57,092 bases of DNA, from contig JAJVIH010000052.1 of NCBI GenBank assembly GCA_022072125.1, positions 1 to 57,092 of the forward strand, read 5' to 3'. The DNA comes from Myxococcota bacterium (lineage in GTDB: Bacteria; Myxococcota; JAJVIH01). The notes under the pieces were generated by a model. That model saw only the letters and a program-made list of their open reading frames with translations, did not search any database and was not told where the DNA came from. The position numbers and the translations under genes were made by a program. Shown here in pieces: positions 6,597 through 51,515 of the stretch (position 1 is its first letter; the number at the start of each line of letters is the position of its first letter).

Positions 6597-6617
6597 GCCC
6601 CGCCTTCACAGCGGGGC
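6597..6617 (-). other. Hairpin in the map-infA intercistronic gap
   Basis: GCCCCGC and GCGGGGC pair perfectly with a 7-base loop in the mRNA between map and infA, about 20 bases upstream of the infA start. There is no T-tract, so it is not a terminator; a processing or stability element is possible. Confidence 0.4.
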
Positions 6618-6630
6618 GCAAGACCATACA

Positions 6631-7386: not shown

Positions 7387-7387
7387 T

Positions 7388-8032: not shown

Positions 8033-8046
8033 CGGCGGCGCTCCGG

Positions 8047-9369: not shown

Positions 9370-9395
9370 GGCGTCTCCCTGTTCAGAACCGGCGA

Positions 9396-9857: not shown

Positions 9858-9877
9858 GGAAAAACTCCTTGTGTCCT

Positions 9878-10072
9878 TCAGGCGGATTCGCCGCTGGACT
9901 CAATGGCCACCATGTGGCGGACCTTCTCAATCATGCCGCGGACGGCCGGGGTGTCCTGCAGTTCCACCGTGTGGTGGCGGCGGCGCAGCCCCAGGCCCGC
10001 GACCGTCGCGCGCTGGCGATCGGTGCAACCGGAAAGCCCTTTCAGAAGGGTCACCCTGATTTTCTCGGCCAT
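9878..10072 (-). CDS. rpmD: 50S ribosomal protein L30
   Basis: A 64-residue protein with the L30 pattern: a first strand [11 protein letters not shown], then an [18 protein letters not shown] segment, and a final IEKVRHMV helix. It lies eight bases after rpsE and before rplO, its standard place. Confidence 0.94.
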
Positions 10073-10080
10073 GATTTACC

Positions 10081-10617
10081 TCAAGCGTTGTCGGACGCGG
10101 GAGCGGCCTTGCGTCCGGTGATTTCCTCAAGGGACTTGCCGCGGCGGCGGGCGATCTCCTCGTGGGAGCGCAACTGCTTCAGACCGTCCAGCGTCGCCTT
10201 GGTTACGTTGTGCGGATTGGACGTGCCGTGGCACTTGGTCAGGATATCGCGCACGCCAAGCTGCTCCATGATCGCGCGCACCGTGCTGCCCGCGATGACG
10301 CCCGTGCCGGGAGCGGCGGGAATCAGCACCACGCGGGAGGAGCCGAACCGGCCCATGACCTCGTGCGGAATGGTCGTGTTGTGCAGCGGCACCTTGATGG
10401 TGCGCTTCCTGGCCGCCTCGGAGCCCTTGCGGATGGCGTCCGGAACCTCGCGCGCCTTGCCCAGCGCCACTCCGACCGTTCCCTCACCGTCTCCCAGCAC
10501 CACCAGCGCGGCGAAGGAGAAACGGCGTCCGCCCTTCACGACCTTGGCGGTGCGGTTGATGGCGACAACGCGCGGGTCGCCAAACGAGGATTCTTCCTTG
10601 TTGAAAACATCTGCCAT
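10081..10617 (-). CDS. rpsE: 30S ribosomal protein S5
   Basis: It contributes to decoding fidelity and mRNA unwinding at the entry site. The 178 residues contain the double-stranded-RNA-binding-like N-terminal domain ([19 protein letters not shown]) and the C-terminal domain with APGTGVIAG and [18 protein letters not shown]. The tail after about residue 160 is longer than in E. coli. Nine bases separate it from rplR. Confidence 0.97.
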
Positions 10618-10626
10618 GGGGGTCCC

Positions 10627-10992
10627 TTAGAAATCCAGTCCGGAGGAGCGCGCGCCGTCGGCCAGTTCCTTGACGCGGCCGTGAAAGGTGAATCCGTTGC
10701 GATCAAACACCACCTGGCTGATGTTGGCCGCCTTGGCGCGCTCGGCGATGATCTGCCCGACCTTGCCGGCCGCCTGTTTCTTGTTCAGACCGGCGAACTG
10801 GGAGCGCGCTTCCTTTTCCACCGTGCCGGCGGAGACAATGGTCTTGCCGGTGACATCGTCAATGATCTGCGCGGTGATGTGGCGCGCGGAACGGAAAATG
10901 CACAGCCGGGGCCGCGCGGTCGAACCCGTGACCTTCTTGCGGATGCGCGCCTGGCGGCGGCGGCGGATTTCAAGTCGTTTGCTGGTTGCCAT
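10627..10992 (-). CDS. rplR: 50S ribosomal protein L18
   Basis: It binds 5S rRNA. The 121-residue protein has the basic N-terminus RLEIRRRRQARIRKKVTG, the RPRLCIFRSARHITAQIIDD strand region and the C-terminal FDRNGFTFHGRVKELADGAR motif. It lies between rplF and rpsE. Confidence 0.97.
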   Translation of the reverse strand: MATSKRLEIRRRRQARIRKKVTGSTARPRLCIFRSARHITAQIIDDVTGKTIVSAGTVEKEARSQFAGLNKKQAAGKVGQIIAERAKAANISQVVFDRNGFTFHGRVKELADGARSSGLDF

Positions 10993-11010
10993 GGTGATTG
11001 CTCCGGGCGA

Positions 11011-11547
11011 TTACGAGCCGGCCTTCTTGCCGGCCTTCTGGATGATGCGTTCGCCTTCGTATTTGATGCCCTTCAGCTTGTACGGGTCGGGAATGCGCAG
11101 CGCGCGGATTTTCGCGGCGGTGCGTCCCACCACTTCCTTGTCCGCGCCGGTCAGGATCACCTTGGGGCCTTCGATTGCGGCGGTGACGCCATCGGGCAGC
11201 GGAAAATCCACCGGGTGGGTGAATCCAAGCTGGAAATTGATGGTCTTGCCCTTGACCTCGGCGCGGAAACCGACGCCGCTGATTTCAAGGGTCTTCTTGA
11301 AGCCTTCCGAGACGCCTTTGACCATGCCGGCCACCAGCGCCCGGTACAGACCGTGCTCGGCGCGGGATTGGCGATCATCGGCGGCGCGGACCACGTGAAG
11401 CTGGTCGCCTTCCTGGCGGAAGGAGACCGTGGGATTCACGGTGCGGCTCAGCGAGCCCTTGGGTCCCTTGACGGAGATCGTCTGGGCGTTGATGGTCGCG
11501 GTCACCCCCTTGGGGAGCGCGATGGGTTGTTTTCCGATGCGGGACAC
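11011..11547 (-). CDS. rplF: 50S ribosomal protein L6
   Basis: It binds near the GTPase-associated centre. The 178 residues start [16 protein letters not shown] and show two repeated L6 domains, the second with the signature [14 protein letters not shown]. It follows rpsH by 19 bases. Confidence 0.97.
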
Positions 11548-11566
11548 GGCCTTGACCTCCAGAAAA

Positions 11567-11965
11567 TTACCAGATCGAACAGATCAGCTCGCCGCCGATA
11601 TGCTGCTTGCGGGCTTCCGCGCCGGTCATCAGTCCGCGCGAGGTGGACAGAATGACGGTGCCGAGCCCGGCGCGCACGCGCGGAATGCCGTCGCTGGATG
11701 CATAACGCCGCAGGCCGGGGCGCGACATCCGCCGCACGCCGCTGAGCACGGGCTGATTATCGGAATCGTAGGCGACCTCGATCTCCAGATATCCCTGGGG
11801 ACCCTCCTTCACGAAATCCACGCGGGTCAGGTAGCCCTCCCGCTTGAGCAATTCGGCCAAGCGGCGGTTCACCTTGGAAGCCGGGGCGCGCAGGGTGCGG
11901 TGTTTGGCCCGGGCGGCGTTGCGCACGCGGGTCAGCAGGTCTGCAATGGGATCGGTCAGCAACAT
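11567..11965 (-). CDS. rpsH: 30S ribosomal protein S8
   Basis: It binds 16S rRNA helix 21 and, in many bacteria, represses the spc operon. The 132-residue protein begins [17 protein letters not shown] and ends with the signature [21 protein letters not shown] chose the ATG at 11965 because it matches the family start; the longer upstream frame overlaps rpsN. Confidence 0.96.
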
Positions 11966-11979
11966 CACTCGGCTCCTGG

Positions 11980-12165
11980 TTACCAGCTTGACTTCACCAC
12001 GCCCGGAACATCGCCGCGCAGCGACAGGTTCCGGAAGCAGATGCGGCACATGTTGAACTTGCGCAGGAACGCGCGCGGCCGCCCGCACACCGGGCAGCGG
12101 TTGTAGGCGCGCACCTGGAACTTGGGTTTGCGCTTCGCCTGGGCAATCTTGGATTTCTTCGCCAC
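11980..12165 (-). CDS. rpsZ: 30S ribosomal protein S14, zinc-binding short form
   Basis: A 61-residue S14 of the C+ type: CPVC and CRIC supply four cysteine zinc ligands. The C-terminus has the [11 protein letters not shown] motif. The short zinc type is standard in many phyla but not in enteric bacteria, which have a ~100-residue cysteine-free form. It sits between rplE and rpsH. Confidence 0.96.
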
Positions 12166-12180
12166 GGGTCTTTCTCCTGA

Positions 12181-12726
12181 TTACTTGCGGAAGGGCATGC
12201 CGAGCTTTTCCAGCATGAAACGGGCCTCGTCATCCGAGTTCGCGGTGGTGACGATGGTGATGTTCATTCCCTTGACCTTGTCAATCTTGTCGTAGTCAAT
12301 CTCCGGGAAGATGATTTGCTCCTGCAAACCCAGCGAGTAGTTGCCGCGTCCGTCAAACGCCTTGCGCGACACGCCGCGGAAATCGCGGACGCGGGGCAGC
12401 GCCAGGTTGACCAGGCGGTCATAAAACTCCCACATGCGGGCGCGGCGCAGGGTCACCATCACGCCGATGGGCATGCCCTCGCGCAGCTTGAAGTTGCTGA
12501 TGGCCAGGCGGGAGCGGGTCACCACCGGTTTCTGGCCGGTGATCGCCGCTATCTCGACCTGCGCCGTTTCAATCAGCTTGGGGTTCTGGACCGCTTCGCC
12601 CAGGCCCATGTTCAGAACAATCTTGGAGATGCGCGGCGCCTGCATGGGGTTGGAGTATTTGAACTCCTTCATCATGGCGGGAACCACTTCCTTGCGGTAT
12701 ACTTCCTGGATTCGCGTGATTGACAT
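12181..12726 (-). CDS. rplE: 50S ribosomal protein L5
   Basis: It binds 5S rRNA and contacts P-site tRNA. The 181 residues include the signature [20 protein letters not shown] near the N-terminus, and the [23 protein letters not shown] segment near the C-terminus. It is spaced 16 bases from rplX. Confidence 0.97.
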
Positions 12727-12742
12727 TGCCGTTCCCTTCAGC

Positions 12743-13063
12743 CTAGGCGATGGCCTTGCCGGTCGCCTTGCTCACGCGGACTTTTTTACCTTCCGCGTTT
12801 TTCTGGTAGCCCACGCGGACGCCGCGTTTGGTTTCCTCGTCCCACAGCATCACGTTGGAAATATGGATGCTGCCGTCGAGAGTGATGATCCCGCCGTCGG
12901 GATGATCCTTGTGAACCTTGGGCTTGAGGTGCTTCTTGACCTGATTCAGCCCCTCGACCACCACGCGATCCTTGTCCGCCAGGATCTTGGTCACGCGGCC
13001 GGTCTTGCCCTTTTCCTTGCCGGCGATCACCACCACGGTGTCGCCTTTTCTGATGCGATTCAT
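12743..13063 (-). CDS. rplX: 50S ribosomal protein L24
   Basis: It is an early assembly initiator of the large subunit. The 106-residue protein contains the KOW motif ([20 protein letters not shown]) and the following [11 protein letters not shown] segment. It lies between rplN and rplE. Confidence 0.97.
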
Positions 13064-13079
13064 GGCCGTCTATCCCTTC

Positions 13080-13448
13080 TCACAGCACCTCAGGCGCCAT
13101 GGAGACAATCTTCATGAAGTTCCGGGCGCGCAGTTCGCGGGCCACCGGCCCGAAGATACGGGTTCCGATCGGCTCCATCTGGTTGTTGATGAGCACGCCG
13201 GAGTTGGTGTCGAAGCGGATGAAGGTGCCGTCGCCCCGGTTGATCATCTGGCGCTGCCGCACGATGACCGCCTTGACCACCGATCCCTTCTTGATCTTGG
13301 ACTCGGGAGTCGCTTCCTTGACCGCCACCACGATGACATCGCCGACCTGGGCGTATTTGCGCTTGCTGCCGCCCAGCACCTTGATGCACATGACCTTCTT
13401 GGCGCCGGAATTGTCGGCCACATCGAGCATGGATTGCTGCTGAATCAT
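13080..13448 (-). CDS. rplN: 50S ribosomal protein L14
   Basis: It lies at the subunit interface. The 122 residues start [20 protein letters not shown] and carry the signature segment [18 protein letters not shown] and [13 protein letters not shown]. Length is exactly that of the family. It is 16 bases from rpsQ. Confidence 0.98.
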
Positions 13449-13464
13449 CGCGCTGACCTCCTGC

Positions 13465-13746
13465 TCAGGCCTTCACGGCCTTCTCGAGAATCTCCTGCAC
13501 GCGCCACCGCTTGTGGCGGGACAGCGGGCGGGTTTCCACAATGCGCACGCGATCGCCCACTTCGCACTGGTTGGCCTCGTCGTGGGCCATGAACTTCTTG
13601 CGGTAGCGGACGAACTTCTTGTACTGCGGATGCGGCACGAGCTTCACGAACTCGACCACGGCGGTCTTGTCCATGGCGCTGGACACCACGACCCCCACCA
13701 GCGCGCGGCGGCGGCGGGCTTCCGGTTCTTTCCTGGTTTCTTCCAT
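13465..13746 (-). CDS. rpsQ: 30S ribosomal protein S17
   Basis: A primary 16S rRNA binder with an OB fold. The 93 residues include the family core [18 protein letters not shown] and the signature [21 protein letters not shown] short acidic and basic N-terminal extension precedes the core. It lies between rpmC and rplN. Confidence 0.97.
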
Positions 13747-13763
13747 GACCTTGATCCCTGGCT

Positions 13764-13973
13764 TCAGCCGGCGCGGCGTTTTTCGCCCAGCACGGTGTTG
13801 ATCCGCGCGATGCTCCGGCGGGTCTGCCGCAGCGCGGTGGTGTTTTCGAGTTCGTTGGTGGCGTGGCGGAAGCGCAGCTTGAACAGCGCCTCCTTCGCGG
13901 CCCGCAGATCCTCCTCAAGCTGATCGGAAGTCTTGGTCCGCAGATCGTTCAACTGGTCAACGCGCTTGCTCAT
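13764..13973 (-). CDS. rpmC: 50S ribosomal protein L29
   Basis: A 69-residue helical hairpin protein near the exit tunnel; the pattern [17 protein letters not shown] then [19 protein letters not shown] is typical. Its ATG overlaps the rplP stop by four bases (ATGA), so the two are translationally coupled. Confidence 0.96.
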
Positions 13974-14389
13974 AGCTCATCCTTTCCGCGCACCAGCACG
14001 CGGGTCTTCACCGGCATCTTGGCGGCGGCCAACTCCAGCGCGCGCACGGCGATATCCCCGGAAACACCCTGAATTTCATACATCACGCGGCCCGGTTTCA
14101 CGACGGAAACCCAGAATTCCACGTTGCCCTTGCCTTTTCCCATACGGGTTTCAAGCGGCTTGCGGGTGATCGGCTTGTCCGGAAAAATCCGGATGAAAAC
14201 CTTGCCGCCGCGTTTGGCGTGACGGCTGATGGCGATACGGCCCGCCTCGATCTGGCGCGCCGTGACCCAGCCGCACTCGGTGGCCTGCAGGCCGAAGTCC
14301 CCGAACGCCAAGTCCGAGCCGCGGTAGGCCTTGCCGGTCATGCGGCCCTTCTGCTGCTTGCGGTATTTGACTCTCGCCGGTGTCAACAT
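13970..14389 (-). CDS. rplP: 50S ribosomal protein L16
   Basis: It organises the peptidyl-transferase and A-site region. The 139 residues begin [19 protein letters not shown] and include the [17 protein letters not shown] segment. The gene ends inside the start of rpmC by four bases. Confidence 0.98.
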
Positions 14390-14410
14390 GGCTCAAATCC
14401 CCTAAAACGG

Positions 14411-15073
14411 CTACTGCGCCTTGGGAGCGCGCACGCCCGTCTTCTGCTTGAAAACCTCGCCCTTGAAAATCCACACCTTGACGCCAATCTGGCCATAGGT
14501 GGTGGAAGCCTCGGCGAAGCCATAATCAATATCCGCGCGCAGGGTGTGCATGGGCACCCGGCCCTCGCGGTACCATTCGGTGCGCGCCATTTCCGCGCCG
14601 GCCAGGCGGCCCGAGCAGCGGATCTTGATTCCCTTGGCGCCGAACTTCAGCGAGGTGGTCACCGCCTTCTTCATGGCCCGGCGGAACGCCACGCGCCGCT
14701 CCAACTGGGTCGCCACGTTCTCGGCGACAAGCTGGGCCTCGATTTCCGCCTTGCGGATCTCCTGAATATTGATGCCCACCTGCGGCTGGGAGGTGAGCTT
14801 CTGGATTTCCTTGCGCATCTGGTCAATGCCGGCGCCGCGCTTGCCGATGACGATGCCCGGCTTGGCGGTATGCACGTTCACCCGCACGTTGTCAGCGGCG
14901 CGCTCGATTTCAATCTTCGAGATGCCCGCCTGATCATACTTGTCCTTCAGGAACTTGCGGATGCGCAGATCCTCGTGCAGCCACTGGCAGTAGTTCTTCG
15001 AACTGTACCACTTGGAATTCCAGGTCTTGATGATTCCAAGGCGAAGACCGATCGGATGTGATTTCTGGCCCAT
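14411..15073 (-). CDS. rpsC: 30S ribosomal protein S3
   Basis: It lines the mRNA entry channel. The 220 residues begin [20 protein letters not shown] and contain the KH domain with [14 protein letters not shown] and the C-terminal domain with [20 protein letters not shown]. Spaced 21 bases from rplP. Confidence 0.98.
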
Positions 15074-15087
15074 GCAAATTCCCCTGA

Positions 15088-15417
15088 CTAATCCTTGAGA
15101 ACGACCGTGACGTGGCTGGTGCGCTTGAGCACGCGGTAGGCGCGGCCATGGGCGCGGGGACGGAAACGGCGCTGGGCCGGACCGCCGTCGGCGTAGGCCG
15201 TGGCGACGATCAGGCGATCCACGTCGCCCTGACCCTGGCGGCGCGCGTTCTGCACCGCGCTTTCGATCAGCTTGCGCACCGGCGTGGCGGCGGCGCGGGG
15301 CATGAAGCGCAGCAGGTCAATCGCCTCCTGCACCGGTTTGCCGCGGACCTCATTGAGGATGGCCCGCACCTTGCGCGGCGTCATCTTCAGGTAACGGAGG
15401 CTGGCTTTGGATTCCAT
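15088..15417 (-). CDS. rplV: 50S ribosomal protein L22
   Basis: A tunnel-constriction protein. The 109 residues include [23 protein letters not shown] at the N-terminus and the conserved hairpin [20 protein letters not shown]. It lies between rpsS and rpsC as usual. Confidence 0.98.
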
Positions 15418-15427
15418 GACCTGTCTC

Positions 15428-15715
15428 CTACTTCTTCGCCGGGGCGGCGCCTTTTTTATCCCCGGAGTGGCCGTGGAAGGTCCGGGTCAGCGAGAACTCG
15501 CCGAGCTTGTGACCAACCATGTTTTCGGTGACATACACCGTGACGAATGTCTTGCCGTTATGCACCGCGAAGGTGTGACCGACGAAATCCGGGGTGATGG
15601 TCGAGCGGCGCGACCAAGTCTTGACGACCTGCTTCTTGCCGCCGGAGTTCATCCCATCCACCTTTTTGACCAGATGGCCATCCACGAACGGGCCTTTTTT
15701 CAGTGAGCGTGCCAC
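15428..15715 (-). CDS. rpsS: 30S ribosomal protein S19
   Basis: A head protein contacting S13. The 95 residues begin [19 protein letters not shown] and contain [23 protein letters not shown] and [21 protein letters not shown]-type signature residues. It is ten bases upstream of rplV. Confidence 0.98.
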
Positions 15716-15736
15716 GTCTTTTTCTCCTCAGCGCGA

Positions 15737-16564
15737 CTACTTGTTGCGGCGCTTCACGATGAATTTTTCGGTGCGCTTGTTCTTGCGCGTCTTCTGGCCC
15801 TTGGTTTTCCACCCCCACGGGGACACCGGGTGCGGATTGCCCTGGCCGGACTTGCCTTCGCCGCCGCCGTGCGGGTGATCAACCGGGTTCATCGAGATGC
15901 CGCGCTGGTGCGGGCGCCAGCCCATCCAGCGGTAACGGCCCGCCTTGCCGATGACCATGTTTTCGTGATCCGGGTTGGACAGCGTTCCAATCGAGGCCCG
16001 GCACAGCACATGCACGCGGCGCACCTCGCCGGACGGCAGGCGGATCTGGGCCCAGTCGCCTTCCTTCGCCATCAACTGCGCGGAGCAGCCTGCGCCACGA
16101 GCCAACTGCCCGCCGCCCGCGATTTTCATTTCGATGTTATGGACCGTCGTGCCCACCGGGATGCTCTTGATGGGCAGGCAGTTGCCGGGCTTGATATCGG
16201 CGTTGACGCCCGACTCCACCTTGTCGCCCGGCTTCAGGTCCTGGGGCGCCAGGATATAAGACTTTTCGCCGTCGGCGTAGGCCAACAGGGCGATGCGCGC
16301 GCCGCGGTTCGGATCGTATTCCACCGACAGCACCTTCGCGGGGATTCCATCCCTGGTGCGGCGGAAATCAATGACGCGGTAACGCTTCTTGTGTCCGCCG
16401 CCGCGGAAGCGCGCGGTCATGCGTCCCACGTTGTTGCGGCCGCCGCTGGACAGCTTGCGCGTGGTCAGCTTCTTGAGCGGCTTCGACGCCGTGATGTCCG
16501 CGAAATCGGACACCTGCATGAAGCGGCGTCCTTCGGACGTGGGTTTGAAAGATCGGTTGCCCAT
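15737..16564 (-). CDS. rplB: 50S ribosomal protein L2
   Basis: L2 is needed for subunit joining and peptidyl-transferase activity. The 275 residues begin with the KPTSEGRRF segment. The highly conserved [13 protein letters not shown] with the functional histidine is near residue 227, followed by the [20 protein letters not shown] tail. It follows rplW by four bases. Confidence 0.98.
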
Positions 16565-16568
16565 GGCC

Positions 16569-16859
16569 TTACTCTTTCGCTTCGTAAATCTGGATGCTCT
16601 GGCCGGACTTGAGGGTCACAACGGCGCGCTTGCGGTTGGGCTTTTGTCCCATGAAGCGCCCGATGCGCTTGACCTTGCCGCGCAGCACCAGGGTGCTCAC
16701 GCTCTCCACGTTGACGCTGAACAGCTTCTCGACCGCGGCCTTGATCTGCACCTTGTTGGCGGAGGGCGCGACCTCGAAAACGTATTTCCCCGCCGCGTTG
16801 CCACGCAGGGATTTTTCCGTCAGCACCGGGCGGATAATCACGTCGTACGCCGTGCTCAT
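16569..16859 (-). CDS. rplW: 50S ribosomal protein L23
   Basis: An exit-tunnel protein that docks trigger factor and SRP. The 96 residues show the pattern [13 protein letters not shown] at the N-terminus and an [19 protein letters not shown] segment. Its ATG overlaps the rplD stop by four bases. Confidence 0.97.
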
Positions 16860-17473
16860 GTCAACCTCCCTTCAATCGCCTTCGCGGAGGGACGGGTCAG
16901 CACCAGGTGCTTGAAACGCAGCACGTCCAGCACGTTCACGCCATCCGGGCGGGTGACCTTGATGTCCGGCAGGTTGCGGGACGACAGCGCCAGACGCTCG
17001 TTTTCGCCGTCCACGATCAGGGCGTTGTCCACGCCCAGGGTCTTGAGCACGCCGGCCAGCGCCTTGGTCTTGATGGCGTTCAACTCGAAGTTGTCGAGGA
17101 TCAGCAGCTTGCCCTGGCTGGCGCGCTGGCTGATGGCCGAACAGAGGGCGCCGCGCTTGACCTTCTTGTTGACGTCGTAGCTCCAATCGCGGGGCTGCGG
17201 GCCGAAAATCACGCCGCCGCCGCGCCACAGAGGGGAGCGGATGGACCCCGCGCGTGCGCGGCCGCTGCCCTTCTGCTTCCACGGCTTCTTGCCGCCGCCG
17301 GAGACCAGCGCCTTGTGCTTGGTCATGACGGTGCCCGCGCGGTTGCGCGCCTGCTGCATCTTCACCACCTCATAGATGGTGTTCTCGTTGACTTCGGCGG
17401 CGAACACCACGTCGCTGAGATCGATGCTGCCGATCTGCTTCTTGCTCAAGTCATATACAGGAAACGTCGCCAT
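16856..17473 (-). CDS. rplD: 50S ribosomal protein L4
   Basis: It forms part of the exit tunnel and may regulate the S10 operon, as known in E. coli. The 205-residue protein begins [23 protein letters not shown] lies five bases before the ATG at 17473. The extended tunnel loop with [15 protein letters not shown] and [15 protein letters not shown] is intact. It starts only 13 bases after the rpsJ stop, where rplC would normally be. Confidence 0.97.
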
Positions 17474-17486
17474 CGAGGCTCCCTCA

Positions 17487-17792
17487 TCAAGAACGGATTT
17501 CGACATCCACGCCGGCGGCGAGATCGAGTTTCATCAGCGCGTCCAGCGTCTGCGGAGTCGGTTCGAGAATGTCGAGCAGCCGCTTGTGGGTGCGCACCTC
17601 GAACTGCTCGCGCGACTTCTTATCAATGTGCGGGCTGCGCAACACCGTGACGCGGGTGATTTCAGTGGGCAGCGGAATGGGGCCGGCGATGCGGGCGCCC
17701 GTGCGCTTCGCGGTGCCGACAATCTCCTGGGCCGACTGATCCAGCAGTTTGTAGTCGTAGCCCTTCAGGCGGATGCGGATTTTCTGTTGCAT
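17487..17792 (-). CDS. rpsJ: 30S ribosomal protein S10
   Basis: A ribosomal head protein that also serves as NusE in antitermination. I start it at the ATG at 17792 ([19 protein letters not shown]), giving 101 residues, close to the family's 102-105. The signature [24 protein letters not shown] region is present. It follows tuf by 13 bases and directly precedes rplD, without rplC. Confidence 0.98.
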
Positions 17793-22188: not shown

Positions 22189-26301
<4,113 letters not shown>

Positions 26302-26361
26302 GGTGGCTCCTTTGACGGAAACTTGAACTGGTTCTCATGTCCTGCGGCGGGGGGGCCTCTC

Positions 26362-30471
<4,110 letters not shown>

Positions 30472-42991: not shown

Positions 42992-43234
42992 TCAGCGCAG
43001 GGTCCTGTTGTCCGTTCCACGAATTTTGATCCAGGCGCGGGACAGCGCCATTCCTAGCTCTCCAGTGAGGCGGTAGAGTGAAACCACGAAGAAAAACCCA
43101 AGCGCCGCAGCGAAAAACACCAGCAACATCGAAGGGGCGCCTTGCCCGGAAATACCGGTTTGGGCATGGGCAGGGCCCGCCGCCAGGGTCATCATCAGGG
43201 TTGCAAGGGCTGCTGGAATCAATCGGGTTTTCAT
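42992..43234 (-). CDS. Small exported membrane protein of unknown function
   Basis: An 80-residue protein. Residues 1-24 are a signal peptide (basic MKTR, hydrophobic core, AHA before the likely cut), followed by a short Gly/Ser segment and a single hydrophobic span at about 35-53 (MLLVFFAAALGFFFVVSLY), then a basic tail. AGGTGG lies before the ATG. No family recognised. Real expression is supported by the dedicated terminator downstream. It is transcribed in the same direction as the penicillin-binding protein upstream, across a 240-base gap. Confidence 0.7.
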   Translation of the reverse strand: MKTRLIPAALATLMMTLAAGPAHAQTGISGQGAPSMLLVFFAAALGFFFVVSLYRLTGELGMALSRAWIKIRGTDNRTLR

Positions 43235-43284
43235 GACCACCTCACTCTTGTTGAGGAGATATGCAATTTCCGTGCCGGTTTCAT
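43231..43284 (-). CDS. Possible leader peptide upstream of the small membrane protein
   Basis: A 17-codon frame starts at an ATG at 43284 and its TGA overlaps the next gene's ATG by four bases. Its start region (GTGGTCATGAAA, 12-base match at 43279-43290) repeats the start region of that gene (43229-43240) exactly 50 bases away. It may be a translational coupler or merely a duplication remnant. Confidence 0.25.
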   Translation of the reverse strand: MKPARKLHISSTRVRWS

Positions 43285-43476
43285 GACCACTGAAAAATTC
43301 TTCGTTCCACCTGTAGAGACGGCTCACGCGCTCAAAAGTTTTCAGGTTGCGCGGATTGAAACCCGCGGGTTCATCCCACCCGCTCATCTCAACAACCTCA
43401 ACTCCCGCATGCCCGCCGGTGTGGCGAGCACAAATCCCCGCATTTCCCCGGCGGAAACAGACCTTGCAGCGGTTGA

Positions 43477-44754
43477 TCAAAACCCCAGCGCGCGGCGGGC
43501 TTCGCTGCGGGTCATCAATACTTCCTTGCGGGGGCTGGGAATGCGGCGCGGCGGCGGACGTTTGGAGGAGACTGGTTTGGGGCTGACCGGTCCGGCCTTC
43601 GCCGCCGGCGCAGACGGCGTTACGGCGAGCACCGGCTGATCCCCTGATTTCCCTGACGGCGCGGATTCCGCGCGAACGGGTTTTTTCGCCGCCTTCTTTT
43701 CCCGGTCGCTCCAGGCCTTGATGACCAGTTGGGCGGGCAAACCGGATTTGATCCGCCATTTCGGGCCATTCACCACCAGTGAGGCGACCGCGATTTTCGG
43801 ATTGTCCGCGGGGGCCACCCCGATGAACCAGCTATAATCCCGGAATGGCGCCTTGTCCGCGAGGGAGCCGGTTTTGCCGCTGACTTCCACCTGACCCACC
43901 AGGGAACGCCCCCGCCGATCATGGAAGGCGCGCCGGGCGGTCCCGACCGTGGTGGTGGTGATCATCATTTCACGCAGCCGATCGGCCATGGCGGCGTCAT
44001 AGGGTTGGGCGATGACCTGGCCCTTGGCGGCGTCCGCCGGGTTTTCATAGGGCTCCAGCAGTTTTCCGCCGTTGGCGAGGCTGGCCGCCAGCATGGCCAT
44101 GTGCATGACGCTGACCTTGACCTCGCCAAACCCGGCGGCGGTGCGGGCGAATTCCAGTTCATCCTCGGGAATCACGGCGCGCGAAGGCTCCACCGGCAAA
44201 AAACGGGAGAGCGGCCTGCCAAACGCATAGCGATCCAACAGGTCCCGCAATCCCGATGGCGACAGATGCCTGAGCGCCAGGCGGGCGAAGACCACGTTGG
44301 CGCTTTTCCCCAACGCGGTGGCCATGTCGTAACAGCGGGAATCCAGCCGTTCATTGGGGGTCAGCAGGTTTTTGGTGATGCGCCGCAGGCCGCCCCGGTA
44401 ACAGGTTTCCTCATCGGGATTGGCTCCCTTCTCGATCAGCGCCGCCGCGGTGACGATTTTGAACAGGCTGGCCGCCGGGTAATCCGCCGCCGTGGCGATG
44501 TCCTTGCGCTCCGGCTCCTCCTCGGAATGTTCCGCCCGCGCCAGCACCGCGCCCGTGTGGGGATCGAGCACCACCACCGCCGCCCAGGGGGTTTTGTTCT
44601 CTTTCAGGACCTTTTCCGCCACCCGTTGCAGTTCAGGGTCAATGGTCGAAGGCTTGTCCCCGGCGGAAACCAGGGCCGGGACGGCGATCAACGCCGCCAC
44701 GGCGAACATCGGACGGACGGCGGAAAAAAAGGATGAGGAACGCTGGAACAACAT
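43477..44754 (-). CDS. Compact penicillin-binding protein (transpeptidase domain)
   Basis: A D,D-transpeptidase-like protein anchored in the inner membrane and acting on peptidoglycan in the periplasm. The 425 residues have an N-terminal hydrophobic segment (about 14-31), then the catalytic SxxK (Ser96-Leu-Phe-Lys99), SxN (Ser151-Ala-Asn153) and KTG (294-296). The N-terminal dimerisation domain of class B PBPs is absent. The C-terminus from about 350 is a Lys/Pro/Ser-rich tail ending in MTRSEARRALGF. It faces away from the murein-recycling operon that starts at 44880. Confidence 0.85.
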   Translation of the reverse strand: MLFQRSSSFFSAVRPMFAVAALIAVPALVSAGDKPSTIDPELQRVAEKVLKENKTPWAAVVVLDPHTGAVLARAEHSEEEPERKDIATAADYPAASLFKIVTAAALIEKGANPDEETCYRGGLRRITKNLLTPNERLDSRCYDMATALGKSANVVFARLALRHLSPSGLRDLLDRYAFGRPLSRFLPVEPSRAVIPEDELEFARTAAGFGEVKVSVMHMAMLAASLANGGKLLEPYENPADAAKGQVIAQPYDAAMADRLREMMITTTTVGTARRAFHDRRGRSLVGQVEVSGKTGSLADKAPFRDYSWFIGVAPADNPKIAVASLVVNGPKWRIKSGLPAQLVIKAWSDREKKAAKKPVRAESAPSGKSGDQPVLAVTPSAPAAKAGPVSPKPVSSKRPPPRRIPSPRKEVLMTRSEARRALGF

Positions 44755-44879
44755 TGACCTTTTTGCCGGACAGGATGGTTGGATCGGCCTGGACCTTCAG
44801 TGTACTGTGAGCCGCTTTCCCGGCAAATTTACCGGGTCCGGATCCCCCGCTCAAGGGATATCAAATACGTCAATCACCC

Positions 44880-46313
44880 ATGGAACCCCATTCCACTTCC
44901 ATCCCACGGCTGGTCATCGCGGGGACCCACAGCGGCGTGGGCAAGACGCTGATCGCCTGCGCCCTGATCGAATTGCTGCGGCGGCAGGGACTGAAGATCG
45001 CCGTGTTCAAATGCGGCCCCGATTTTCTGGACCCCTTCTGGCTGCGCAACGCCGCGCGCGGACGCTGTTTCAGCCTGGATGGATGGATCATGGGCCGAAC
45101 GGGGGTGCTGCGCAGTTTCATCGCGGCCTCGCGGGAGGCGGATATCGCCATTCTCGAAGGCATGATGGGGCTGCACGACGGCGCCCTGCCCGTCAGTCCG
45201 GAAGGCAGCACGGCGGAGATCGCGGACTGGTTGGCGGCGCCCGTGTTGCTGGTGACGGACGCATCGGGCCTATCGCGATCGGCGGCGGCGCTGGTGCAGG
45301 GGTACGCCCGGTTCGACCCCGCCATCCGCATGGATGCGTGGTTCGCCAACCGGGCGGGCGGCGAGGCCCATGCGGAACTGCTGAAGCAGGCGGTCGCCGC
45401 GCCGCCGCTGGCGGGCTGGCTGGGCGCGCATCCGGAACTGAAAATCGAGGATCAACACCTGGGGCTGGTGCAACCCCAAACGGAAACCCAGGCGCGCGAA
45501 CATATCGCCATGGCGGCGGAGGCGCTGAAGCCGTCCATCAACCTGGAACTGATCCAGCGCATGGCCAGACAGGCTCCGGCGATTCCGGCGGTTCCGCTGG
45601 TGACCGGACCCGTCAAACCCGGCCTGCGCGAGGCCCCCCTCCGCGGAATCCGCCCCGTGCGCATCGGCCTGGCCCAGGACGCCGCATTCAGCTTCTACTA
45701 CCCCTTCAACCTGCAATTGCTGCAGGACCTGGGGGTGGAACTCGTACCCTTCTCCCCAATTGCGGACAAGGCCCTTCCGGATGTGGATGGCCTTTACATC
45801 GGCGGCGGCTACCCGGAAAACCATGCGGCGGCGCTGGAGGAAAACAACTCCCTGCGCCAGGAGGTGCGGGCTTTCTGCGCCAGCGGCGCTCCCGTCTACG
45901 CGGAATGCGGGGGCATGATGTACCTGTCGCGCTCCATCACCACGCTGGATGGCGGGCGTTACGCCATGGCCGGCGTGATTGATCAGGATATCGTCATGAA
46001 CGAGACCTTGCAGGCGCTGGGGTATGCGGAGGCCGGATTGAAAGCGGATGGCCCTCTGGGCCGCGCCGGAACGCGCATGCGCGGGCACCAGTTCCGTTAC
46101 TCGCATATTGAAGGGGCGGATGCGCGGGAAGGGACGCTGTTCGATGTGCGCGCCCCGGGCTCGCGGAACGTGCTATCCATGGGTTATCTGCATGGAGCGG
46201 TCGCGGCGTCGTATATCCATGTGCATTTCGCCTCGAATCCCGGCGTGGCGGAATCATTTGTCCGGGCCTGCGCCAGGTTTGCGGCCCCGCTGGAAGCCGG
46301 AGTGGGGCGGTGA
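44880..46313 (+). CDS. CbiA/CobB-family glutamine-dependent amidotransferase
   Basis: The 477 residues have an N-terminal P-loop (GTHSGVGKT, 15-23), the family's FKCGPDFLDPF and LEGMMGLHDG segments, and a C-terminal class I glutaminase domain with Cys343 (AECGGMM) and His449 (IHVHF). By family it would be cobyrinate a,c-diamide synthase of B12 synthesis. Yet its neighbours are murein-recycling genes, and it overlaps the LD-carboxypeptidase start (GTGA), so a role amidating a wall precursor is possible. No other B12 genes are in the window. Confidence 0.85.
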   Translation: MEPHSTSIPRLVIAGTHSGVGKTLIACALIELLRRQGLKIAVFKCGPDFLDPFWLRNAARGRCFSLDGWIMGRTGVLRSFIAASREADIAILEGMMGLHDGALPVSPEGSTAEIADWLAAPVLLVTDASGLSRSAAALVQGYARFDPAIRMDAWFANRAGGEAHAELLKQAVAAPPLAGWLGAHPELKIEDQHLGLVQPQTETQAREHIAMAAEALKPSINLELIQRMARQAPAIPAVPLVTGPVKPGLREAPLRGIRPVRIGLAQDAAFSFYYPFNLQLLQDLGVELVPFSPIADKALPDVDGLYIGGGYPENHAAALEENNSLRQEVRAFCASGAPVYAECGGMMYLSRSITTLDGGRYAMAGVIDQDIVMNETLQALGYAEAGLKADGPLGRAGTRMRGHQFRYSHIEGADAREGTLFDVRAPGSRNVLSMGYLHGAVAASYIHVHFASNPGVAESFVRACARFAAPLEAGVGR

Positions 46314-47215
46314 TCCGCGGCATCCATATCCTCGCTGCGTCGGGACCTGTTCCGGAAGGGGGACTGGAAGCCGCGCAACGCGATCTGGCGTCGCTGCGCC
46401 TGCCAGTCGCCGTCAAGCCCTCCTGCTCGATGAAAAAAGGATACCTCGCCGCGGACGACGGCGTCCGGCTGGATGAGTTGCAGGCTTCCCTGCGCGCGCC
46501 GGAACCATTGACCATCTGGTGCGCGCGCGGCGGCTACGGGCTGATGCGCCTGCTTCCGCGCCTGGAGGAGGAGGATTTCTCCCACGGCTTCAAACTCGTG
46601 GCGGGCTTCAGCGATGTCACCGCCTTGCACGCGGCGCTGAACGCGCGCGGATGGCCATCCCTGCATGGGCCGCTGGCGACCAGTTATGCGCGGGAGCCGG
46701 GAGACTCGCAGCGCCGGATGATCCGCTATCTTCGCTGGAAAGACCCCGGCCCAATCGCATGGACGCCGGGCGTGAACACCCTCAAGTCAACCATCGAGGG
46801 GAAAATATACGGCGGAAACCTGACCGTGCTCTGTCACCTGGTGGGCACGCCGTTCCTGCCCGGCCTGACGGGAGCCATTCTGTTCATCGAGGATGTCAAC
46901 GAAGAGCCCTACCGGGTGGATCGCATGCTCACCCACCTGATGCTGGCCGGGCTGCTGCAACGCTGCGCGGCTGTCATCGTGGGCGCCTTCACCCACTGCG
47001 AACCCAAAAATCCGGAACATCCGCCTGTCCATGAAGTGATCGCGGAACGGCTGACCGCCGCCGGAGTTCCGTTCGCAACCGGTTTTCCAGCAGGGCATCT
47101 CAGCGGCAACCTGGCCTTTCCGCTGGGCGTGACCGCGCGTTTGTCCTCCAGCGGCATGATCGAGTTTCCCGGTTGGCGGCCCGATGAATTTTCAGCCGGT
47201 TATCCAGCTTCTTGA
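46310..47215 (+). CDS. LD-carboxypeptidase (peptidase S66, LdcA-like)
   Basis: It removes the terminal D-Ala from murein tetrapeptides in the cytosol. The 301-residue protein has the S66 triad: Ser101 in GFSDVTAL, Glu194 in FIEDVNEEPYRVDRM and His263 in GHLSGNLAFPLG; the ARGGYG segment precedes the nucleophile. The GTG start overlaps the amidotransferase stop by four bases, and GGAG lies upstream. MccF-like immunity activity is a lesser alternative. Confidence 0.88.
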   Translation: MIRGIHILAASGPVPEGGLEAAQRDLASLRLPVAVKPSCSMKKGYLAADDGVRLDELQASLRAPEPLTIWCARGGYGLMRLLPRLEEEDFSHGFKLVAGFSDVTALHAALNARGWPSLHGPLATSYAREPGDSQRRMIRYLRWKDPGPIAWTPGVNTLKSTIEGKIYGGNLTVLCHLVGTPFLPGLTGAILFIEDVNEEPYRVDRMLTHLMLAGLLQRCAAVIVGAFTHCEPKNPEHPPVHEVIAERLTAAGVPFATGFPAGHLSGNLAFPLGVTARLSSSGMIEFPGWRPDEFSAGYPAS

Positions 47216-48332
47216 TCAGGGACGGGAACGGCGTCTGTTCTCCGGGGCGTCAATCATCGCCTCCCGGGAAGGCGAGGTCTTGTTTCACCAGCACCATGGA
47301 ACCACCGCTTGGCGCCGCGATGAGCCGGTGAGCGCGGAAACCCGCTTTGACCTCGCCTCGCTGACCAAACCGCTGGCGATCTCCCTGCTGCTGATGCGCC
47401 TGAGCGATGAACGCGGGGCGGATCTGGATGATCCCGCCGCTCCGCTTCTCCGCGAACTGGAGGGAACTCCATGGAGCGGCCTGCGCCTCCGCCATCTGCT
47501 GACGCACCGTTCCGGCTTGCCCGCCTGGCGGCCCTTCCACGAATCGCCGCGGTTGCGCGCCCTGGCCCTGGGACAGACCGCTCCGGCGATCCCCGGGGAG
47601 GCCAAACGAACGGTGCTCAACGCCATTGCCCGCGAGACGCCGCAAAGCCCGGCGGGAGAACGTGAGGAATACAGCGATTTGGGTTTCATGTTGTTGGGGT
47701 TCTGGCTGGAACGCCGGCTCGGCGAGCCGCTGACGATGGCCTTTCAGCGCCTGGTCGCGCAACCGCTGGGGGCGGATGAACTATTCTACCTGCCGCGGCC
47801 CGGCGGCGCGGATTCATCGGCGCCGCCCTTTCCCCGCCAGCGCGAGAGTTTCGCCGTCACCGGAAACTGCCCCTGGCGCGGGTGGCTGCGCGGCCATGTG
47901 CATGACGACAACGCCTTCGTGCTCGGGGGCGCCGCCGGCCATGCGGGCCTGTTTGGAACCGCGCGCGGCGTTCACGCCCTCGCCTGTGCGGTGTTCCGCC
48001 TGCTCAACCATGGCGGTCCCTGGTGCGCTAGCGAAACCGCGCGGCGTTTTCTGCTCAAGCCGGATCGCGGCAGCCGCTTCACGCTGGGCTGGGACACGCC
48101 GTCGGAAATGGACTCGCAGGCGGGCGTCATCGCCAGCCGCTCCAGCTTCGGGCATCTGGGCTTCACCGGAACCAGCCTGTGGATAGACCCGGAAAACCGG
48201 ATCATCACCGTCATCCTGACCAACCGCGTGCATCCAGATGCGGAAGACCGCGGTTTCCGCACCTGGAGACCCGCCATGATGGATGCGCTATACCGGTGCA
48301 TGGGTATTGCAGGGAGCAGATATGATCACTGA
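47184..48332 (+). CDS. Class C beta-lactamase-like serine hydrolase
   Basis: The 382-residue protein has the SxxK motif (Ser59-Leu-Thr-Lys62), Tyr163-Ser-Asp165 in the YxN position and His324-Leu-Gly326 in the KTG position, so it belongs to the beta-lactamase/DD-peptidase/esterase superfamily. No signal peptide is seen, which suggests a cytosolic hydrolase acting on muropeptides rather than a secreted beta-lactamase. It overlaps the preceding gene by 32 bases and the next by 11, so translation is coupled. Confidence 0.82.
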   Translation: MNFQPVIQLLDQGRERRLFSGASIIASREGEVLFHQHHGTTAWRRDEPVSAETRFDLASLTKPLAISLLLMRLSDERGADLDDPAAPLLRELEGTPWSGLRLRHLLTHRSGLPAWRPFHESPRLRALALGQTAPAIPGEAKRTVLNAIARETPQSPAGEREEYSDLGFMLLGFWLERRLGEPLTMAFQRLVAQPLGADELFYLPRPGGADSSAPPFPRQRESFAVTGNCPWRGWLRGHVHDDNAFVLGGAAGHAGLFGTARGVHALACAVFRLLNHGGPWCASETARRFLLKPDRGSRFTLGWDTPSEMDSQAGVIASRSSFGHLGFTGTSLWIDPENRIITVILTNRVHPDAEDRGFRTWRPAMMDALYRCMGIAGSRYDH

Positions 48333-49818
48333 CTGGATGGACACTCCGCCCGAGCCGGTGCGCTACCCGGCCTACGAGATCAACCAGGAAATTCCGCCGC
48401 TGGAACGGGTCCGGCGTATCCACCTGATCGGCGTGTGCGGAACCGGCATGGGCGGGCTTGCCGGCATGCTCAAACAACAGGGATTCCGCATCACCGGCAG
48501 CGACGACAATGTCTATCCGCCCATGAGCACGTACCTGGAGAATCTGGGCATCGAAATCTGGCGCGGGTTTGACCCCGCCCACCTGGAGCCCGCGCCGGAT
48601 ATCACCATCGCCGGCAATGTATGCAACGCGAACAACCCGGAGGCCAGGGCCGCGCGCGAGCAGCGGCTGCCCACGCTCTCTTTCCCTCAGGCGCTGGGGC
48701 GGTTTCTGGTGCGTGACCGCTATAGCCTGGTGATGTGCGGAACCCACGGCAAGACAACTTCCACCGCGCTTCTCGCCTGGGTGCTGGCGCACGCGGGGCG
48801 CGATCCCGGCTATTTCATCGGCGGCGTCACCAACAACTTCCCGGAAAGCTGCGCCATGGGCGGCGGACCGGAAGTGGTGCTGGAGGGCGACGAATACGAC
48901 AGCGCATACTTCAACAAGGTCCCCAAATTTGTTCATTACCGCCCGCGCGGCGTCACCCTGACCAATGTGGACTTCGACCACATGGATATCTATCCGACGG
49001 TTCACCATTACCGCCAGGCGTTCAAGGACCTGATGGCCCTGATCCCGGCGGACGGCCTGCTGGCGGTTTGCGCGGAAAATGACGCCGCCATGAGGATATC
49101 GGCCCTGGCGAAATGCCCGGTCATGACCTATGGCACGCGCGAGGACGCCCAGGTGCGCGCGCTGGAACTGGAGCAATCCCCGGCGGGGTGCTCGTTCACC
49201 CTGCTTTTCCCCCGCGAAGAGCCCCGCCGGATGCGCCTTCCACTGGGCGGCCAGCACAACGCCCTCAACGCGCTGGGGGTGATCATCCACGCCCGCTCGC
49301 GGGGCCTGACGCTGGATCAAATTCAATCCGCCTTCGACGCCTTCGGCGGAATCAGGCGCCGCCAGGAAGTACGGGCCACCGTGGGCGGTGTCACGATCAT
49401 GGACGACTTCGCCCATCATCCCGCCGAGGTGCGCGCGACCATCCAGGCCGTGAAAAGCCTGTATCCCGGACAGGCGGTGCATGCGATCTTTGAACCGCGC
49501 ACCAACACCAGCCGCCGCCGCGTCTTCCAGAAAGATTATGTCGAGGCGCTGGCCGGTGCGTCATCCGCCCTCATCAAAACCGCCGAACGCAAACACGCGG
49601 ACGAACAAGGCGAACTCTTCTCCTCGGAAGAACTGGCGGCGGATGTCAGCCGCATGGGAACGCCTGCGCGCGCCATCGCCACGGTGGATGAAATGGTCTC
49701 CGTGCTCCGCCAGGAAGCCCGGCCGGGCGACATATTGTTGATCATGTCCAACGGCGGATTCGGCGGTATTCATGACAAGCTGATCGCCGCGCTCCGGGAG
49801 CGTTTTGGCGATGGCTGA
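48322..49818 (+). CDS. mpl: UDP-MurNAc:L-Ala-gamma-D-Glu-mDAP ligase
   Basis: It reattaches recycled tripeptide to UDP-MurNAc. The 498 residues have the N-terminal GVCGTGMGGLAGMLKQQG domain, the ATP loop GTHGKTTST, and the central EGDEYDSAYF and DFAHHPAEV motifs of Mpl. I use the ATG at 48322 behind GGGAG instead of a longer frame starting at 48283. It implies a meso-DAP peptidoglycan and sits next to the LD-carboxypeptidase that would feed it. Confidence 0.92.
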   Translation: MITDWMDTPPEPVRYPAYEINQEIPPLERVRRIHLIGVCGTGMGGLAGMLKQQGFRITGSDDNVYPPMSTYLENLGIEIWRGFDPAHLEPAPDITIAGNVCNANNPEARAAREQRLPTLSFPQALGRFLVRDRYSLVMCGTHGKTTSTALLAWVLAHAGRDPGYFIGGVTNNFPESCAMGGGPEVVLEGDEYDSAYFNKVPKFVHYRPRGVTLTNVDFDHMDIYPTVHHYRQAFKDLMALIPADGLLAVCAENDAAMRISALAKCPVMTYGTREDAQVRALELEQSPAGCSFTLLFPREEPRRMRLPLGGQHNALNALGVIIHARSRGLTLDQIQSAFDAFGGIRRRQEVRATVGGVTIMDDFAHHPAEVRATIQAVKSLYPGQAVHAIFEPRTNTSRRRVFQKDYVEALAGASSALIKTAERKHADEQGELFSSEELAADVSRMGTPARAIATVDEMVSVLRQEARPGDILLIMSNGGFGGIHDKLIAALRERFGDG

Positions 49819-50659
49819 TCGGGTTTCACTGGAGCGGGATCTGATTGAGGTCATCCGCATTGCGCGGTCCGCCGGGGAAATCATCCGCCCGTATTTTGGC
49901 GGACCGTTGCGCGTGGAGCATAAGGGCGCGCTGGATCTGGTCACCGAAGCGGATCGCGCGTCGGAAGAGTTGATCCTCCGGGAATTGGCCCAATCCTTTC
50001 CCGGCGAGCCGGTGCTGAGCGAGGAAGCCGGCATGACAGGCGGGGAGAGCGATGTGCTGTGGGTGACGGATCCCCTCGACGGCACCACCAATTTTTCCCA
50101 TGGACACCCGGTATGCGCCGTCTCCATCGCCCGGCTGAGGGATGGCAGACCGGATGTGGGCGTTGTCTGCGCCCCCATGCTGGGAGAATTGTGGAGCGCG
50201 GCGCGCGGCGCCGGAACCTGGCTCAACCAGCGGCCCTGCCGGGTCAGCGCGGCGGCGGAAATGAAAAAAGCCCTGCTCGCCACGGGCTTTCCCTACGATG
50301 TACACACGCCGCCGCACCGCAACCTGCGGGAGTTCGCGGCGTTCATCGTGCGCGCGCAGGCGGTGCGGCGCATGGGCGCGGCGGCTGTTGATCTGGCGTA
50401 TGTGGCCTGCGGCCGTTACGACGCCTTCTGGGAGCCCGGCCTCAAGGCGTGGGATGTCGCGGCGGGCTGGCTGTTGATCGAGGAGGCCGGCGGCGTGGTC
50501 ACCAGCCATGACGGCGGTCCGTTCGATCCCTTCGGCGGCGACATTTGCGCCAGCAATGGCGTGCTTCACCCGGAAATGGTGTCCGTGCTCAAATCCCTCC
50601 GGGAAGAGGAGCGCGGCGGCGGCAAGGGTTTCAGCGTATTATCGCCATTCCCTCCATGA
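49811..50659 (+). CDS. Inositol monophosphatase family phosphatase
   Basis: A magnesium-dependent sugar/inositol phosphatase. The 282 residues have the family motifs: EEAG, DPLDGTTNFSHG and WDVAAGWLLIEEAGG. The ATG at 49811 has GGGAG upstream and overlaps mpl by eight bases. The true substrate could be inositol-1-phosphate, histidinol-phosphate, or an amino-sugar phosphate; the operon suggests a wall-related metabolite. Confidence 0.88.
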   Translation: MADRVSLERDLIEVIRIARSAGEIIRPYFGGPLRVEHKGALDLVTEADRASEELILRELAQSFPGEPVLSEEAGMTGGESDVLWVTDPLDGTTNFSHGHPVCAVSIARLRDGRPDVGVVCAPMLGELWSAARGAGTWLNQRPCRVSAAAEMKKALLATGFPYDVHTPPHRNLREFAAFIVRAQAVRRMGAAAVDLAYVACGRYDAFWEPGLKAWDVAAGWLLIEEAGGVVTSHDGGPFDPFGGDICASNGVLHPEMVSVLKSLREEERGGGKGFSVLSPFPP

Positions 50660-50677
50660 AGGTCACGGAGGGAATGG
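50645..50677. terminator. Hairpin between convergent genes
   Basis: CCATTCCCTCC (50645-50655) and its perfect complement (50667-50677) flank an 11-base loop at the end of the phosphatase gene, facing aroE. Neither strand has a T-tract, so the terminator reading is uncertain. Confidence 0.35.
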
Positions 50678-50702
50678 CCCCCAGGAACAGTTCCAGTCCG
50701 GA

Positions 50703-51515
50703 TTATTCCTCCAGCGCCCGGCGCATGACTTCGAGCGGCGCGGCCCTGCCCGTCCAAAACGAAAACGCCTCCGCCGCCTGATACAGCAGCATCGGCAAAC
50801 CATCCATGACGCCCAGACCCCCCGCGGCGCAGGCGCCGAGAAAGGGCGATGGGCGGCCGTAGGTCAAATCCATGGCCAGCGCGCGCGGCGATACATGGCG
50901 GAACAGGCCGGGCGGCGCGGGATTTATCCCTTGCCGTGACGCCGTGGTGGCGTTCACCAGCAGGTCCAGTGGTTCGATGGCGTCCTCAGCTTCATTCCAC
51001 AAGGCGGCGTGATTTCCGCCGGCCGCCGCAACCAGTTCGCGGGCCCGGTCCGGAGAGCGGTTGGCGATCCACACCCGCGCCGCGCCCCGGCGCGCCAAGC
51101 CATGAACCACCGCGCGGGCCGCCCCGCCCGCTCCAATGACCAGCGCGCGCGCGCCATCCAGCCGCACGCCCCCTTCGCGCTCACAGGCCTGGATGAAACC
51201 ACTGGCGTCGGTATTGGCGCCCGTCAGCAATCCCCCCATATGAAACAGACAGTTGACCGCGCCGATGGAGCGCGCCTCCGGGTTGACGGCGTCCAGCAGC
51301 GGAATCACAGCTTCCTTATGCGGCGAGGTGATGCTGACGCCGGCAAATTCCACGCGCGCGCGGCGGATGAACTCCGGCAGTCCGGAAGGCTCGACTTCAA
51401 TCGCCTCCATGCGAAATGGCGCCCCCAGAGCGGCGCATGCGGCGTTGTGCATGGCGGGAGAGCGGCTGTGTGCAACTGGATGGCCGATCACCGCCAGACG
51501 GACCGGATTCCCCAT
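50703..51515 (-). CDS. aroE: Shikimate 5-dehydrogenase
   Basis: It reduces 3-dehydroshikimate in aromatic amino-acid synthesis. The 270 residues have the substrate site VIGHPVAHSRSPAMHN, the catalytic Lys in SPHKEAV and Asp in NTDASGF, and the NADP motif VIGAGGAARAV. I start at the ATG at 51515 (GAGG upstream), nine codons after a less likely start that would overlap ribF. It is last in the sigma-factor operon, 11 bases after ribF. Confidence 0.9.
   Translation of the reverse strand: MGNPVRLAVIGHPVAHSRSPAMHNAACAALGAPFRMEAIEVEPSGLPEFIRRARVEFAGVSITSPHKEAVIPLLDAVNPEARSIGAVNCLFHMGGLLTGANTDASGFIQACEREGGVRLDGARALVIGAGGAARAVVHGLARRGAARVWIANRSPDRARELVAAAGGNHAALWNEAEDAIEPLDLLVNATTASRQGINPAPPGLFRHVSPRALAMDLTYGRPSPFLGACAAGGLGVMDGLPMLLYQAAEAFSFWTGRAAPLEVMRRALEE

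Follow-up and report, generated by a model that had tools for sequence, protein, structure and literature searches.

A CbiA/CobB-family amidotransferase gene ahead of murein-recycling genes in a Myxococcota draft genome

The CbiA family of glutamine-dependent amidotransferases includes CbiA/CobB (cobyrinate/hydrogenobyrinate a,c-diamide synthase), DsrN (siroheme amidase of dsr operons) and CfbB (Ni-sirohydrochlorin a,c-diamide synthase). To our knowledge, the characterised full-length members (CbiA, CobB, DsrN and CfbB) all act on tetrapyrroles. These four are treated together as tetrapyrrole amidases in PMC10504309. A related glutaminase half serves wall precursors in MurT-GatD (lipid II isoglutaminyl synthase); papers on this complex or on AsnB include PMC6113224 and PMC8554201. 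Here, we analyzed a 57,092-nucleotide stretch of a Myxococcota bacterium (assembly GCA_022072125.1, contig JAJVIH010000052.1, positions 1 to 57,092; hereafter the window), in which a CbiA-family gene lies directly in front of genes for murein recycling.

Judged from gene content, the protein probably has a function other than B12 synthesis. At somewhat below an even chance, we tentatively favor an orphan member of the CbiA/CobB/DsrN/CfbB family that amidates a carboxylate of a tetrapyrrole, perhaps of sirohydrochlorin or siroheme.

Protein features and tetrapyrrole genes of the host

The window protein scored well above the cut-offs of two curated CbiA/CobB-family models (NF002204, 442.2 bits against 254; TIGR00379, 385.4 bits against 261.4). 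PF01656 and PF07685 both exceeded their thresholds, so both family domains are present. NF002204 was also passed by a DsrN and by two orphan relatives in other genomes of the phylum (G147 and G149); thus, this model does not define the substrate. CfbB shares family and domain order with the window protein, which, however, reached 363.3 bits with the CfbB model, far under its cut-off of 560; the other Cfb genes were not searched for in the host genome.

Catalytic motifs were retained, including the P-loop GKT (residues 21-23), GPDFLD (46-51), E93, D100 and the glutaminase Cys343 and His447. The corrin-type GPDFLDP and EGxMGLxDG motifs were also kept, and the likeness to CbiA/CobB extends over domain order, NF002204 score, P-loop, GPDxLD, EGxMGLxDG and the glutaminase Cys and His. 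The window protein differs from CbiA/CobB in having Gln in place of the Arg of the P-x-R-HLGL motif, in its murein-recycling neighbors, in its long branch and in a host genome in which no corrin pathway was found. When compared with 81 homologs, it kept 50 of 52 near-invariant columns, the two departures being R192Q and A286V.

A structure model of the protein was confident and showed two domains (mean predicted local distance difference test score, pLDDT, 89.7). Values below 50 occurred at residues 195-197 and 242-250, and the loop immediately after position 192 is among the least certain parts. Structure matches were dethiobiotin synthetase for the first half and GatD for the second; among the matches listed, no solved structure came closer to the C-terminal half than GatD (Z about 18-20, 16-18% identity). 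No solved CbiA structure was found by sequence search at E 0.001.

The source genome is a draft of 78 contigs (95.8% complete), and all absences reported for it hold for this draft. A GATase_3 search returned the CbiA gene and two weak matches of 245 and 207 residues, which by eye are PurQ and HisH; we therefore found no CobQ. A TP_methylase search returned no corrin methyltransferase and two proteins, a uroporphyrinogen-III methyltransferase (293.9 bits; cut-off 198), which carries a HemD-like part under its own cut-off, and RsmI (192.2 bits; cut-off 167.9). Neither BtuR nor CobT was found in the draft. Among 14 control genomes, the GATase_3, TP_methylase, BtuR and CobT searches were positive in 14, 14, 7 and 7, respectively.

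Genes for B12 use and genes of B12-import type were present. A cobalamin riboswitch was located upstream of a TonB receptor (L137, G000:C41:1-12000, features at 1082-4563), whose highest-scoring model was that of MxcH, a siderophore receptor (113 bits; cut-off 925), and which scored 78 bits with the B12-receptor model BtuB (cut-off 599.7). As no receptor model reached its cut-off, the riboswitch is our only reason to relate this receptor to B12. Beside the two is a lipoprotein-like frame of 447 residues that matched no Pfam family and may encode a partner of the receptor at the cell surface. In addition, a FecCD permease and a periplasmic binding protein were found near a PduO-type adenosyltransferase, and, of eight B12-binding matches, one passed its cut-off as the C-terminal domain of a methylmalonyl-CoA mutase. 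A second, weak cobalamin riboswitch match (39.9 bits; L138, G000:C1:76000-92000, 4602-4735), between a hemC-like and a lipoprotein-like gene, may be a chance hit. With pathway markers absent and B12-use and import-type genes present, the host looks like a B12 scavenger and not a corrin builder, and since no corrin pathway was found, the CbiA gene would be an orphan with respect to corrins. The initial annotation of the window had called for a check for the remaining B12 genes, on the grounds that a complete pathway with no other CbiA/CobB would speak against its proposal of a non-corrin role; none was found.

The corrin genes could instead lie in an unassembled or unbinned part of the draft, leaving the window gene as an ordinary CbiA. 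The genome is fragmented and incomplete, and in relatives many cob genes lie together in a single cluster, all of which might escape assembly at once. Nevertheless, we consider this highly improbable: CobQ, the corrin methyltransferases, BtuR and CobT were all missing together while B12-import-type genes and a PduO-type adenosyltransferase were present, and this CbiA sits in a different operon and has lost Arg192.

A siro-type ring is expected in this host. One protein with two NIR_SIR domains was detected, nearest to NirA-type sulfite/nitrite reductases although under the curated cut-offs, which implies that the genome should make siroheme.

CbiA-family relatives

Neighborhoods were surveyed for 89 other CbiA-family loci, 24 in genomes of the phylum and 65 named loci, each 4 to 21 kilobases (kb) long and some stopping at contig ends. 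Named genomes were scanned with six short peptide patterns of the window CbiA, and no searched genome was nearer to the source than phylum level. Corrin and dsr labels were assigned by tblastn with ten reference proteins from loci L017 and L018, whose methyltransferases can cross-match, together with reading of neighbor sequences; dsr labels were checked with curated models on seven proteins of four dsr loci.

Of 195 genomes of the phylum, 25 carried a CbiA-family gene, the source among them. Among the other 24, 13 had at least three corrin reference genes, 8 had dsr genes and 3 were placed otherwise. At least one of the ten corrin reference genes was nearby in 55 of the 65 named loci. The closest homologs sit in cob operons, the outcome that the initial annotation had listed as adverse to its proposal, though these are in genomes that have the pathway, unlike the host. 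Matches to the window CbiA were also present in 238 plasmid records, the best being 44.5% identical.

Outside corrin clusters, most phylum CbiA genes had a link to tetrapyrroles, 8 of 11 being in dsr operons as DsrN. Like these, the window gene is a CbiA-family gene of the same phylum placed outside corrin clusters; unlike them, it has no dsr genes, carries a corrin-like LDP where most of these DsrN proteins have IDAAW, and is 34-39% identical. Of the remaining three orphans, one follows ABC-import genes (ABC, ATP-binding cassette), one lies ahead of genes resembling CfbC and nitrogenase and of a TonB receptor gene, and the third (G108) had no recognized tetrapyrrole neighbor; all three have full-length frames. 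Two TP_methylase matches each were found in G147, G149, G108 and the DsrN-bearing G030, compared with seven in the corrin-cluster control G142. Intact CbiA-family genes in TP_methylase-poor genomes therefore recur in this phylum, and the informative neighbors point to tetrapyrroles or transport.

The three orphan loci were also inspected individually. In L143 (G147:C57:295000-313000), a periplasmic binding protein, an ABC ATPase (by eye), a FecCD permease and CbiA form one run at 5737-9793; six near-invariant positions are changed in this CbiA. In L142 (G149:C76:46000-64000), the CbiA gene shares a run (8408-17489) with a frame that combines a CfbC/NifH-like and an Oxidored_nitro part, with another Oxidored_nitro protein, and with genes for a TonB receptor and a lipoprotein-like protein. 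The CfbC/NifH-like part scored 339.7 bits with NF033200 (cut-off 402), and the best model for the receptor was the B12-receptor model (107.8 bits; cut-off 599.7). The run resembles a Cfb-like cluster for tetrapyrrole reduction or salvage, here in a bacterium and not a methanogen. L146 (G108:C24:65000-83000) carries an intact 455-residue CbiA at 8674-10041, which groups with Myxococcota corrin enzymes; no corrin reference gene was found in the surrounding 18 kb, and G108 is listed as 100% complete.

The overlapping gene run and the murein-recycling unit

The features around the CbiA gene are as follows.

43477..44754, - strand: divergent gene with a penicillin-binding transpeptidase domain (PF00905)
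44755..44879, no strand: intergenic gap of 125 bases between this divergent gene and CbiA
44880..46313, + strand: CbiA/CobB-family ATP- and glutamine-dependent amidotransferase, 477 residues (profile matches and motifs)
46310..46313, + strand: GTGA overlap combining the GTG start of LdcA and the TGA stop of CbiA (sequence)
46310..47215, + strand: LdcA, LD-carboxypeptidase (PF02016 and PF17676)
47184..48332, + strand: PF00144 serine hydrolase, closest curated model PBP4B (108 bits, below the cut-off of 385)
48283..49818, + strand: Mpl-family ligase (TIGR01081, 387.8 bits; cut-off 388.7)
49805..50659, + strand: inositol-monophosphatase-family gene (PF00459), the final overlapping gene of the run

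Five plus-strand genes (CbiA, LdcA, PF00144, Mpl and PF00459) thus each overlap their successor. Profile matches agreed with the initial annotation on the identity and position of the first four and on the overlap of the amidotransferase with LdcA; the PF00459 gene extends the run beyond those four. The GTGA arrangement suggests translational coupling of CbiA and LdcA. For the Mpl gene, the TIGR01081 score was 0.9 bits under the cut-off, and the MurC model scored 72 bits lower (316.1; cut-off 335.1); its neighbors are as in the loci of relatives. We take PBP4B to be YfeW, and B. subtilis AmiE to be a PF00144 member. The activity of AmiE is given as MurNAc-L-Ala amidase in PMC5061867.

The intact CbiA frame resembles its neighbors in codon usage (third-position G+C content 0.81; mean log codon probability -0.933, compared with -0.809 to -1.030 in seven nearby genes). 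The gap upstream had neither an Rfam match nor a sigma-70-like site; no sigma-70-like promoter was found ahead of CbiA, and the two sites found are elsewhere on the opposite strand. The sole Rfam match in 43000-51000 was a sub-threshold DnaX element on the opposite strand within mpl, which was treated as chance. Elsewhere in the window, two adjacent very long minus-strand frames (1370 and 1369 residues; 22189-30471) probably encode RNA polymerase subunits, to judge from their length and location.

Of the 195 phylum genomes, 182 had LdcA. At the best 29 non-self LdcA loci, a PF00144 gene was found within 1.5 kb in 26 and Mpl as well in 23; 22 of these 23 had the same order and direction, some loci being cut by contig ends. 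The LdcA-PF00144-Mpl peptide-recycling unit is therefore common in the phylum, and the window shares it. What sets the window apart is the CbiA gene in front, which was seen only here among the loci examined. CbiA was within 1.5 kb of LdcA at none of the 29 best-scoring other LdcA loci, and no LdcA, PF00144, Mpl or PF00459 gene was near CbiA at any of the 89 other CbiA loci (E 1e-6). The window gene order was not found in the 195 phylum genomes and 65 named loci, where distant homologs could escape the peptide patterns; other phyla were not searched for CbiA beside LdcA. No paper linking CbiA with LdcA, Mpl or murein recycling was found in open-access full text, a set that leaves out most subscription journals.

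One explanation for this arrangement is that CbiA was recruited as a muropeptide amidase, acting on the alpha-carboxylate of D-isoglutamate or the epsilon-carboxylate of meso-diaminopimelate (DAP) in the recycled tripeptide or in the UDP-MurNAc-tripeptide made by Mpl, with the amidated precursor re-entering wall synthesis. CbiA heads the overlapping run and is followed by the common recycling unit; no corrin pathway was found, the Arg192 of all 81 relatives is lost, and MurT-GatD offers a precedent of a related glutaminase half serving wall precursors, GatD being the nearest solved structure to the C-terminal half. Yet the pairing was absent from all 89 other CbiA loci and from the best 29 other LdcA loci, corrin-type motifs are kept, and the last gene of the run is no recognized wall gene. 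Moreover, the synthetase of MurT-GatD is a separate Mur-ligase-like subunit, whereas the window protein is a single chain with a BioD/CbiA-type domain. The likeness to GatD, cited in the initial annotation as support, is not particular to this protein: its GatD-model score was 22.3 bits (cut-off 450), and that of the transport-linked relative was 24.1. We consider this explanation possible but doubtful. Much the same doubt applies to its broader implication, a CbiA-type enzyme wholly off tetrapyrroles that amidates recycled murein peptides and provides this lineage with a wall-amidation route, at the recycling step, unrelated to MurT-GatD and AsnB. The initial annotation had proposed a muropeptide or DAP substrate rather than a corrin; the case against a corrin substrate is supported, as pathway markers before and after the CbiA step were not found in this draft, while the wall substrate draws on an operon seen in one genome only and is not supported by comparison with the 89 other loci.

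Substrate and mechanism

Several observations weigh against a plain tetrapyrrole role. The neighbors of CbiA are of murein type, and no tetrapyrrole or ring-modifying partner gene adjoins it. No B12 riboswitch was found at the operon (Rfam, 43000-51000). No dsrAB pair or other dsr gene was detected, the genome having a single NIR_SIR protein and the window neighbors including none; and we know of no need of assimilatory sulfite reductases for a siroheme amide. In the best tree, the window CbiA fell in neither the DsrN nor the Myxococcota corrin clade, and its branch was long (1.18). At position 192, within the P-x-R-HLGL motif common to corrin enzymes, DsrN and the CfbC-linked relative, all 81 relatives have Arg, irrespective of the ring on which each presumably acts, and the window protein has Gln. 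Finally, this protein differs at 19 of 117 columns conserved across 34 corrin-associated sequences, compared with a maximum of 9 for any of the 34 in leave-one-out comparisons.

The tree and the conservation counts were based on the window and 81 of the 89 loci, after a filter on length and E-value had removed L086, L088-L092, L094 and L095. In approximately unbiased (AU) tests, grouping of the window protein with DsrN (p-AU 0.115) or with the Myxococcota corrin clade (p-AU 0.212) was not rejected. Departures at near-invariant positions were not unique either: seven other rows had at least two, including four with six or seven and one with four. L026, which is sited among corrin genes, has seven, and departures alone thus do not exclude corrin function; the lost Arg192 is a weaker sign of a new substrate than it appears. 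Likewise, corrin-gene-linked rows outside the set of 34 had at least as many conserved-column differences as the window protein (L026, 25 of 109; L062, 20 of 116; L082, 23 of 116). The DsrN rows differed at 30 to 35 columns, the G149 protein at 22 and the G147 protein at 27.

Changes at Arg192 and at other positions conserved in corrin-associated relatives, together with the missing corrin pathway, would also fit a relic, that is, a remnant of a lost pathway or a gene acquired alone, with little or no function, persisting at the head of a useful operon. However, the frame is full-length with its catalytic motifs kept and only 2 of 52 near-invariant columns changed, codon usage is neighbor-like, the model predicts two confident domains, and the orphans of G147, G149 and G108, also from TP_methylase-poor genomes, are likewise full-length. 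We regard a relic as improbable.

If the protein is an orphan tetrapyrrole-type amidase, family membership and the kept residues suggest how it would work. A carboxylate would be phosphorylated at the expense of ATP in the N-terminal P-loop domain. Ammonia freed from glutamine by the class-I glutaminase of the C-terminal half (Cys343, His447) would convert the acyl phosphate to an amide. The likely substrate would be an acetate side chain of a tetrapyrrole. Since the acetate-bearing ring that the host visibly makes is of the sirohydrochlorin/siroheme type, we would first expect a siroamide-like product and, failing that, action on a scavenged corrinoid acid. The position before LdcA-PF00144-Mpl would then reflect co-expression and no shared pathway. 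The choice of substrate comes down to relatives that amidate tetrapyrroles and a host that makes a siro-type ring, against an operon and a lost Arg that point away from rings; the probability left after the readings named here falls to something else.

An intact CbiA whose host genome shows no corrin pathway would be either an unrecognized amidase of siro-type rings or of corrinoid salvage, or the first member of its family to act on the cell wall. In addition, a model named for cobyrinic acid a,c-diamide synthase scored well over its cut-off on the window protein, on the G147 and G149 proteins, whose genomes have two TP_methylase matches each, and on a DsrN. Because it fires on such genes, this model should not serve alone as a marker of B12 synthesis.

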